Below, piece after piece: positions 27,752 to 33,700 of a stretch of 64,000 bases of DNA. The notes beneath the pieces were generated by a model. That model saw only the letters and a list, made by a program, of their open reading frames with translations, was not told the DNA's origin and ran no database searches. A program made the translations under genes and the position numbers. Each line of letters starts with the position of its first letter. Within the stretch, counting starts at the first letter, position 1. This DNA is from Lepidurus packardi (taxonomy: Eukaryota > Arthropoda > Branchiopoda > Notostraca > Triopsidae), in contig JAKZAN010000002.1 in assembly GCA_023053545.1 (NCBI GenBank), positions 11,218,790 to 11,282,789 of the forward strand, in the 5' to 3' direction.

Positions 27752-30700
27752 ATGATGGATGTCTCAACATCAGTGTCGTACATTTTTGGCCAGGTTTGTT
27801 ACTTCATTTCTAAAAGCGTTAACTTAATTTAAGTCTGTTTTTGTTTAGCCATGGGTGCCAGTCACTGCACTAGTAGTGACAGCTTTGTTGCTCGCAATGG
27901 GAGCGTTCTTGGCAAGGCGTCTCAAGATTAAAGGTAGAGTACCTTTCCCATTTCCTTTGTTCTATCATGAATAATTGTTCGAATTTGCACTTTACATTAG
28001 TCGTGGAAGCTAAAGAACTAGTCCAAGGCTCCGGAAAGCCACGTTTCAGAAAGCGAGATAAGGTCTTGTTCTATGGACGGAAAATGCTGAGGAAAGTTAC
28101 TTCAGTCAAAGAAAAGGTCAAATCAATCTCTGGACAAGTCCGTGGGCCACCTGGGAAGAAAAGGCGTCTCGTAATGCGATTTGCGAGGAGGCTGTTACAG
28201 CTACAGAAAGAAAATGCTCCAGCTCGACTGAAAGTACATCAGTGCCCATAGAAAGATAATGTATACTAAACAAAATTTGGTTTTAAAAGGTCGTCGAGCC
28301 CCCTGCCGAATATTTGCAAGAAGACCCTACGAATGTTTTAGATCAACGTCTTCCTTCCGAAGTTATATATATGTTGCAAAGCATCAGAATTTTTGGGCAT
28401 TTTGAGAAGCCATTGTTTCTTGAACTTGTGAAACACATGGAATCCATCAATCTTATCAGCGGCCAGTTTCTTTTTCGTATAGGCACGTTTGATAGTAGCT
28501 TATTTGCGTAGAGGAATCTTATTATCATTCTTAATCGTTTAGGTGATCCTGATATAAATGTCTATGTTGTCCAAAGTGGCAAACTCAACGTGTTTGCCAC
28601 GGAAGTTGATGGATCCTTTCTAAGCCTAAAAGATGTCAAGGCAGGAGAAACCGTGACTTCCTTGCTTAGCTTCACAGATGTTTTAACGGTATACTTTTAA
28701 TATGAATTATCATGCGAGTCATCAGTTAACGCTACACTATTCGCCAGGGTCAACCTAGTGTATTCAGAACTGTTTGTGCAAGAGCCGAGGAAGATAGTAT
28801 TGTTTTGAAGCTCCCCATGTCTGCCTTTCAGGTTAGTTTGCAAAATTTTAATCTTACGAGTTTTACTTCCTGATTCCTTTTATTACAGGAGGTGTTCGAA
28901 AAACACCCTGATGTCTTAGTCCGAGTTATACAAATTATTATGGTACGGCTTCAGCGTGTAACATTTTTAGCTTTACATCAGTATTTGGGTTTGAGTGCTG
29001 AACTTGTGAAAACCGTAAGTCTGTACCACCTTGAAAGATGTAGTTTGGAATAATATTTGCATCATTTAGTATTCTTCCAAACACGTAAGCAATGGTGCAT
29101 CCCCTGTTAAGATTAGGATGAGAGATCTGACTTCGCAAAAATCTGAAAATGGTAGTAGGCTTGTCATTTTTCTTTATTTTAATCAAAGTTTACTGTCGAG
29201 GTTTGCATTACTTCCTATTTTAGGGGGGGATGCTGTTTTTGCCTCAGCATCCTTAGCAGCTACGCTTGAGCCGCCTTCACCGTCTCCGGTACCCATGACT
29301 CCACCTTTTTCAGATATCAAGCGTAAACGGGGACCAAGCTTAATTGGCTTGACAGCTGGAGGCAGAAATACGCCAGAGTATCAAAAATTACTGCAGCTAG
29401 GAACTGAAGGTTTGGTTACCCTATTGGGACTTGAAGACGATAGTTTACTGAAAGGAAACGTGGAAATACGTGAACTTGCTCCTGGTAACTACGTTATGAA
29501 AGAAGATTCTCAGAAAGTAAGCATATAACAATTATCTTCAGTATCGTAAAGTATAATCTCATTTTTTTATTATTAATTACCTCCCAAAGGATGCTGCTTT
29601 AGTTTATATCTTAAATGGGACTTTGGTCGTATCCCAAAAGGTTCCCAAGAGCGATCAAGACACACAGATGTTTGTGGCCCATCCCGGAGAACTTGTGGGA
29701 GGTTTGGCTGTTCTGACAGGAGAACCGTCGTTTTTCACAGTTCGTTCCAAGCATATTACTGTTGTGGCTACGCTGTCCAAAAACACGTTCTACTCCATCA
29801 TGGCTGTGAGGCCGAAAGTGGTTCTGCATATTGCGCGAACTGTGATACGGCGATTGTCACCTTTTGTGCGCCAGATTGATTTTGCGTTGGACTGGATGTC
29901 CATAGAAAGCGGTCGTGCGTTGTATAGGTAAATATTCCTTATTTTTCGTAATTTTTTTCCGTAATTTTTCATAATTTCGTTATTTTTCGTTATTCCGTAA
30001 TTTGTTGAGCATAGACAAGAGGATGAGTCAGACAGCACTTACATTGTCCTGAGTGGTCGCTTACGTTCTGTCATAACGCACCGCAATGAGAAGAAAGAAC
30101 TGGTGGGTGAATATGGCCGAGGAGATTTGGTAGGAATCGTGGAAACGCTTACACAGACCCCACGCTCGACAACCGTTATGGCCGTCCGAGACACAGAATT
30201 GGCCAAGATGCCCGAAGGATTGCTCAATGCGATCAAGCTGAAGTATCCCATGGTCGTTTCGCGTTTAATTAACCTCCTTGGACATCGTATTTTAGGTTAG
30301 CGATAGATACTTGCGTTCAGGAACTATACTAATGGTAACAATACTTGTAGGAACGTGGCAAACGCCTAGTTTGTCCCATGCCATTGAACAGCGAGCTTCG
30401 CAGTCAAATTTCTCCACAGTGGCAATTCTGCCAGTTTCCGACGAAGTACCCTTGACACAATTCACCTACGAGCTCTATCACTCGCTTAGAACTATAGGTT
30501 TCGAAAGTTCAAGACAAAAGTGGGACGAATTGACTCATATCTTTTCGTGTAGGTGCTACTTTACGTCTAACTTCTGAATCCATTCGGAAGACCCTCGGCC
30601 CATCTATTTTGGAACCAACTAACGAGTACCGACTGTCTTCTTGGCTGGGACAACAAGAGGATCAGCACCGTATCGTTCTCTACCAGTGTGATACCACTCT

Positions 30701-33700
30701 CACGCCGTGGACGCATCGTTGTATACGTCAAGCGGATTGCATTCTTATTGTTGCCTTAGGTTCCACACAACCTTCGGTTGGCAAAGTATGATTTTGCGTT
30801 TCAGTTAGACTGTGCTTAAAGATTAAATTGCGTTTCAGTTAGACTGTGCTTAATGAAACTACATTTTTTTTCAGGTTGAAAAACAATTAGAAACAGTAGC
30901 TGTAAGGACCCAAAAAGAGCTCATTCTTTTGCACCAAGAAGGCGGTCGTAAACCCGTCAATACTGTCGAGTGGCTGAATGCTAGGTCTTGGTGCTCCTCA
31001 CATCACCACATTCAATGCCCCAGACGCATGTTCGTGAAGAAAACTTCAGCCAAAATTGTAAGCAAGATATCCCTTTTTATGTCTTTCTACCGGTTTCAGT
31101 GTATTATTGTATGTATTACGCGCTTTCGTTCGCGAATTTCAGTGTTTCTGAGTTAAAAAGCTTGATTGTTTTAGTCCGTGGCCGGTATGGACGCCACAGA
31201 CCACGCCTGCAAAGAGGTTTGTGAGCATGGAGTTGTTGTGACTTTTTCGTTGAGGGATTTCGTACGTGTAGTTTCAGCAAATAGGGCGTTTTGGCATGTG
31301 TCTTGGCTTCTACTAACTTTAGATTTGACGGTGTGCGGTGGCTTAAAACCATTTTAGTTTCAGCAAGCTTTGGTTGCTTACACTCTAAACGCGTAGTTGT
31401 CGCGAACTAATCGAATATTTCTTGGTGATTTTAAAAATTATTTTTTTAGCATGATTCCTATAACAAAATACTGCAAACGGAGCCGAGCATCCATTCAGAT
31501 TTTTCGAGACTGGCTCGCCTTCTTACGGGAGAATCAGTGGGGCTCGTCCTGGGAGGGGGGGGAGCTCGTGGAAGTGCTCACGTGGGCATGATCCAAGCAA
31601 TTCAGGTAAACTTTCCAGATTCCAAATGATTTTTTCTCCTTATGTCGTGTGAAAAGTTGATTATAAGCCTTTCTTTACTTGCAGGAAGCAGGAATCCCTA
31701 TTGATATGGTTGGCGGAGTCAGTATAGGTTCATTCGTTGGCGCCTTATGGTGCATGGAGAAGAACGTAGATATTGTAACCCGGAAAGCTCGCGAATGGTC
31801 TAAAGTAAGCTCCTTTGTGAAGTCTTAGCATGTTCTACAACATAGCTTTCTTCCAGAGAATGACCCAAGTGTGGAGACAAGCATTTGACTTGACTTACCC
31901 CATCACAGCCATGTTTACTGGTGCCGGTTTTAATCAACTAATTAAAGATACCTTTGGCGACACCCAAGTGGAAGATTTATGGCTGCCTTACTTTGCTATT
32001 ACTACGGATATCACTTCCAGTTCCATGCGCGTTCACACGCATGGTAAGTTACCATTTTTATTGGATTGCATACTAGTTTTCTTTTAGTTTTCCGAGTGCT
32101 TTCGTTGTGAATGAGTTATTTTTCTGAACCGCGCCTGCATGTGCCGCCTTTATGACCTTCATGTTTTAACCCCTCCCGTCGATAGGCGGTTCTCTCATAT
32201 TTCTTTTAACTCTCTTGGTCTGTTGTCATATCGGGGTTTTTGGTGTTGACTCTGTGTAGCTGGCATGATAGATGTATGTTTTGGGTGGTGTAAACTGATG
32301 CGTTGGGTGTGTTAGGGTCGCTGTGGAGGTATGTTCGAAGTTCAATGAGTTTGGCCGGATATATGCCACCTCTATGCGATCCTGTTGATGGACACTACCT
32401 TGTCGACGGTGGTTATGTCAACAATATTCCTGGTAAAAGAACAATTGCTCTACTTCAACTTTGCTTTCTTTGAGTTTCACTATGCTGCGGAGATCTTTGC
32501 TGTTTGGGGGATTTTTTTTATTTTCTGTGCCAAAACAACAGTGGTACCAGCTTTATGACAGCGAATGGCCGGGAAAAAGGTAAAACAGGGAGATTAAAAC
32601 CTACACACCCACGCACTTTGCATCTATCTTTCTTTCTTTCTTATTTACGTAGTGTTATTGTTCCCTTATATTCCTCCCCATGTCGAGTCTTTTTGCAGTT
32701 CCCTTTCCATTTCGTTGTCCTTATACGCGGCGGCCCAACGTATTTAGAGATTGCTTGTAGCATTTTTTAATCTTTTTCTTTTTAATACCACGATGATATT
32801 TTTCCTGAAAATGTGCTATATGTATCTGCGTGGGTGTGCTAGGCAATGTCTGGAGAACAGTCAGAAGTTCAATGAGTATAGCTGGTCTTCTCCCTCCTGT
32901 TTGCGATCCCGATGATGGACATTTGCTGCTTGATGGTAAACTTCCCTCGAAAGTTTAAAAAAAAAAAAAACTTTCGTTGAGACTTTAAGAATTTTTCAAG
33001 GAATGGTTTTATCTAGGGTGCTATGTCAACAATCTCCCCGGTAAAGCGGAACCCAAGACTTTCTTTCTGTATTCCATTTATTGTTATCGTTTTTCATAAC
33101 GTTCTTTATTATTAGCTGATGTGATGCGGAGTCGGGGGGCGAAACATATTTTAGCTATAGATGTTGGATCACAAGATGACGTCGATTTGACCAATTATGG
33201 AGATTCTTTGTCCGGTTGGTGGCTTCTTTGGAAAAAGTGGAATCCATTTGCCTCACCTGTGAAAGTACCTAATCTGCCAGACATTCAGTCTCGATTAGCT
33301 TACGTTTCTTGCGTTCGTCAATTGGAGGTATGTTGTAACAGAAAGACATGTAGGAAGGAATTTTCTCATTTTTGCTAATTGTATGATTCGCAGGAGGTGA
33401 AGAACAGCGATTACTGTGAATATATTCGCCCTCCAATTGACAAGTACAAGACCTTGCAATTCGGTAGCTTTGATGAGATTAAGGTTAGTTAAAGTCAATG
33501 TTCTAAGTCAAGCTACTACTAAAGGCGATTTTTTGTAGGATGTGGGGTACAATCACGGGAAAACGTATTTTGCTGGACTTTCTAAAGCAGGCTTGCTTAC
33601 ACCATTCACTTTGTTCGGTCAAGGAACGCAAGATGAATTATCGCCATTATCTAAAAACGCGCATTTAAAAACCGCCTCGACAGCTATCACTGCGACAACT

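Follow-up and report, generated by a model that had tools for sequence, protein, structure and literature searches.

Two candidate versions of the catalytic-Asp segment in a probable neuropathy target esterase gene of Lepidurus packardi

Could a single neuropathy target esterase (NTE) gene supply two forms of its own active site? NTE is a lipid enzyme with a nerve-protective role, and the question is raised by a locus in the notostracan Lepidurus packardi where the segment carrying the catalytic Asp appears to be present in two versions. A review describes NTE as the target of organophosphates in delayed neuropathy, a disease modeled by the fly sws mutant (PMC9025805). Should arthropods produce both active-site forms, rescue or inhibitor studies that used a single isoform would describe just one of them, and the two could be assayed one by one. 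We analyzed a window of 64,000 nucleotides (contig JAKZAN010000002.1, positions 11,218,790 to 11,282,789, forward strand), in which the following exons identify the gene and frame the segment in question.

29590-29925, + strand: exon for a cyclic-nucleotide-binding domain (Pfam PF00027, 28.5 bits, cut-off 27.5)
30016-30297, + strand: exon for a cyclic-nucleotide-binding domain (Pfam PF00027, 55.2 bits, cut-off 27.5)
31685-31804, + strand: exon with the nucleophile motif G-V-S-I-G (from the translation and the Patatin match of the joined domain)
31857-32043, + strand: exon upstream of the alternative segment, ending in phase 1 (from the translation and joined frame)
33116-33327, + strand: exon downstream of the alternative segment (from the joined frame)

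With two or more exons for cyclic-nucleotide binding ahead of a patatin domain, the locus has the layout of NTE, PNPLA6 and swiss cheese, and the gene is probably an arthropod NTE/swiss-cheese (PNPLA6-sws) gene. The patatin domain has both a GxSxG motif and a DG dyad and scores above the PF01734 cut-off of 27.7 with either version of the alternative segment. By analogy with the family, the Ser of G-V-S-I-G would be the catalytic Ser. A hydrophobic stretch near 27,850-27,930, judged by eye, is a candidate N-terminal transmembrane segment, and 30794-30856, just before the exon at 30875, holds a direct repeat of 29 nt whose two copies are 97% alike and 34 nt apart.

When the L. packardi assembly (108.6 Mb, 344 contigs) was searched with the catalytic region, six matches were obtained, five at this locus and a weaker one on contig C60; by this search, the assembly holds one NTE gene. 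The C60 site (84872-85507) has an intronless open frame of 802 aa with a strong Patatin match of 124.5 bits; C60 may be a contig of bacterial origin, or the gene may have been acquired by transfer. A Patatin-family search of the same assembly returned seven other places but not the split NTE gene itself, and is therefore unusable for counting NTE genes. The assembly also contains a bantam microRNA (73.8 bits, above the model cut-off), which fits an arthropod, bantam not being known outside that group.

The interval from the end of one exon at 32043 to the start of the next at 33116 contains the catalytic-Asp segment in two versions, A and B, the second of which is made of two exons, as the initial annotation had it.

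32316-32432, + strand: exon A, the DGG version of the catalytic-Asp segment, 117 nt
32843-32935, + strand: exon B1, first part of the DGC version, ending one base past the Asp codon, 93 nt
32936-33016, + strand: intron inside B, with none in A, 81 nt
33017-33040, + strand: exon B2, a microexon encoding GCYVNNLP including the border codon, 24 nt

Re-measured coordinates bear out the equal size that had been claimed (117 nt for A and 93 + 24 = 117 nt for B). Both versions run from phase 1 to phase 1, the checked introns are GT-AG, and 27 of 39 residues are identical, or 28 of 40 when the downstream border codon is included. The changes from A to B are likewise those described at the outset: D-G-G to D-G-C, YM to LL and GHYLV to GHLLL. 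The 81-nt intron contains an in-frame stop, so reading through from B1 to B2 is impossible. Near-complementary arms (20 nt, 75%) flank a run of A nucleotides in this intron, whose folding energy is ordinary (z -0.54). Were B2 skipped, B1 would join on in frame with loss of GCYVNNLP, a possible further form. With its intron, B departs from a single exon per alternative, which is a criterion of prediction programs and not of the mechanism of mutually exclusive exons. A prediction that looks for pairs of individual exons alike in length (PMC3228551) might overlook this pair because B is split in two.

We consider it quite likely that A and B descend from an old tandem exon duplication in arthropod NTE and that an mRNA carries one or the other, in a manner that would tune the enzyme and not switch it on or off. 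Either A or B1 plus B2 would be joined between the flanking exons, and each choice would rebuild a complete patatin domain with its catalytic Asp but with different residues nearby. The choice might tune substrate or inhibitor preference, or the tissue in which the enzyme is used. The gene is thus probably able to make two enzyme forms, while the exclusive choice in mRNA and the functional difference between the forms are what we infer from the features described below.

No stop interrupts the joined frame of the catalytic half, whether it contains A, B, both, neither or B1 alone, in agreement with the earlier statement that double inclusion would stay in frame. Since double inclusion and double skipping are both in frame, degradation of faulty transcripts would not keep the choice exclusive. 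The open frame with both versions is what speaks for the first alternative to exclusive choice, namely that all mRNAs, or some of them, contain A as well as B and so encode a duplicated loop of 39 residues. The joined domain scores 103.4 bits against Patatin with A, 93.1 with B and 66.2 with neither; the highest score, 114.2 bits with both, is discounted, since partial matches can be summed in a score taken over the whole protein. Double inclusion would also place a second helix-strand-Asp unit in a compact domain, whereas the solved PlpD structure aligns with one. We regard joint inclusion as improbable.

Slightly less probable again is a second alternative, that B is a relic without function or a pseudo-exon seldom put to use. 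In its favor, B is interrupted by an intron, has no second Gly in the DGG position and has the lower Patatin score, and A scores higher than B against 53 of the best 80 bacterial relatives (not for the other 27). However, the splice dinucleotides of B are intact, and the two versions are nearly equal against the RssA NCBIfam equivalog model (101.3 bits with A and 100.5 with B, both below its cut-off of 272). Among the best 80 of 407 bacterial relatives, the residue after the dyad Asp is G in 67, A in 10, C in two and S in one. This sample is biased, with 35 of the 80 fitting a search pattern in which only G or C is allowed at that position; the 45 relatives found by the other pattern alone have G in 32, A in 10, C in two and S in one. 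Both DGC cases come from deltaproteobacterial bins whose segments are almost identical and may represent a single lineage. DGC with the catalytic Asp kept is therefore rare but natural. The idea that B is a dead copy owing to DGC was rejected on this occurrence together with the Patatin score of the B form.

The bacterial comparison also bears on the other differences between the versions. At the 12 differing sites, the commonest residue in the best 80 relatives is that of A at four (L95, V116, V122 and G125), that of B at four (I105, V112, L120 and L130) and that of neither at four; sites 120, 122, 125 and 130 fell within the bacterial search patterns. This even split indicates that ancestral-like residues have been kept in each copy. 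The initial proposal of altered residues around the substrate pocket holds at the level of sequence insofar as alignment with PlpD places the changes next to the dyad Asp.

Divergence between A and B is consistent with constraint on both. In total, 12 of 40 residues differ and 79 of 117 nt are identical, with matches at codon positions 1, 2 and 3 numbering 29, 35 and 18 of 40. The likeness is not due to chance: when the first 92 nt of A are laid along both strands of the window, 60 positions agree at the B1 stretch but only 42 at the runner-up site (mean 23, sd 4.1). The dN/dS test that had been suggested for the copies, run as A versus B, gave an NG86 dN of 0.228 and dS of 2.12; dS is saturated, as maximum likelihood put it at 27 and YN00 gave no value. 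In a neutral simulation where one copy was unconstrained, 28 identical residues with no stop were obtained in 0 of 5000 runs at each of 0.5, 0.75, 1 and 2 substitutions per site, and in 73 of 5000 at 0.3. Both copies thus look constrained, which weighs against B being a relic, as does a motif common to the acceptors of the two versions.

32304-32315, + strand: G/U-rich 3' splice-site motif TGGGTGTGTTAG before A (motif search)
32831-32842, + strand: G/U-rich 3' splice-site motif TGGGTGTGCTAG before B1 (motif search)

The + strand of the window contains the pattern TGGGTGTG[CT]TAG at two places, the A and B1 acceptors, and the minus strand at none. The whole 108.6 Mb assembly has five copies of the 13-mer TGGGTGTGYTAGG, these two acceptors included, and 1 + 2 of its reversed pattern; the motif was selected after sight of the two sites. 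The other three TGGGTGTGYTAGG sites, judged by eye, are not clear acceptors. In the 15 nt before AG, G occurs seven times at both A and B1 but zero to four times at 16 other acceptors, these 18 having been chosen by reading with some introns omitted. Pyrimidines number 8 of 15 at A and B1 and 7 to 13 at the other acceptors, so what sets the two sites apart is their G content, not their pyrimidine content.

In a two-sequence alignment of the regions upstream of A and B, made without a control, this motif was the clearest likeness outside the exons, and because synonymous sites are saturated, it is unlikely to be leftover neutral identity. The sharing suggests that the A and B acceptors are under common control, possibly by one splicing regulator, and regulation of the choice could act through this motif. 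CELF/Bruno-type proteins bind UGU-rich sites, and we presume the motif to be a site of this type. A competing intron-intron pairing, which is one known mechanism of exclusive choice though not a necessary one, was also sought in this one species, but none stood out: for each of the six pairs of introns, between 15 and 75 of 100 shuffled versions were as good.

Least probable, and in our view very unlikely, is that the duplication is young and species-specific or an assembly artifact, because dS between A and B is about 2, the preceding introns (272 nt for A and 410 nt for B) share one short repeat of 16 nt at 81% in a repeat search with seed 9, and a duplicated haplotype would be almost identical. 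A recent duplication with residual intron identity was rejected, the likeness seen being that repeat and, most clearly, the acceptor motif. Overall, the initial interpretation is partly supported. As for A and B being interchangeable, maintained versions, dN/dS, the neutral simulation, the fit of each version to the family and the shared 3' splice-site motif all favor it.

More tentatively, and with the balance somewhat against it, the pair could reflect an ancient, arthropod-wide DGG/DGC switch with tissue choice through a G/U-rich acceptor code and consequences for lipid or organophosphate specificity, the DGC form in this lineage also needing the 24-nt microexon. A search for arthropod relatives as contaminants in viral and prokaryote collections, using a downstream-exon query, gave 7 and 66 pattern matches, respectively, with none confirmed. 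We take fly SWS to have LLDGCYTNNVP at this segment of 39 residues, and a DGG alternative also of 39 residues with the same borders. If so, the exon event predates the present lineage and is already annotated in databases. The review mentioned above states that Drosophila sws encodes a pair of isoforms, each 1425 aa long (PMC9025805), and such equal lengths fit a swap of equal-length exons, as with A and B here. Fruit flies may therefore use the same NTE exon choice, and the earlier remark that sws is not known to do so is doubtful; the natural DGC in two of 80 bacterial relatives likewise weakens the case for novelty.

In the open-license literature searched, no description of the A/B pair came up; what is new here is the G/U-rich 3' splice-site motif common to A and B. 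Mutually exclusive exons are given for 154 fly genes in one study (PMC9741552), whose supplement names them and may include sws. Another counts nine events of this kind that alter catalytic sites (PMC7954323). In one of these, fly CG42249, exon choice touches catalytic-site residues as it would here, but the enzyme family differs. Bacterial RssA and PlpD (PDB 5fqu) have the same segment with a DG[G/A/C/S] motif; A and B nevertheless score well under the RssA model cut-off (about 101 versus 272 bits), and the bacterial genes are without introns. Insect Mhc, N-cadherin and Dscam1 likewise have neighboring homologous exons of equal total length and phase that replace one segment. The L. packardi pair differs from usual mutually exclusive exons in that one alternative is divided, into 93 and 24 nt.
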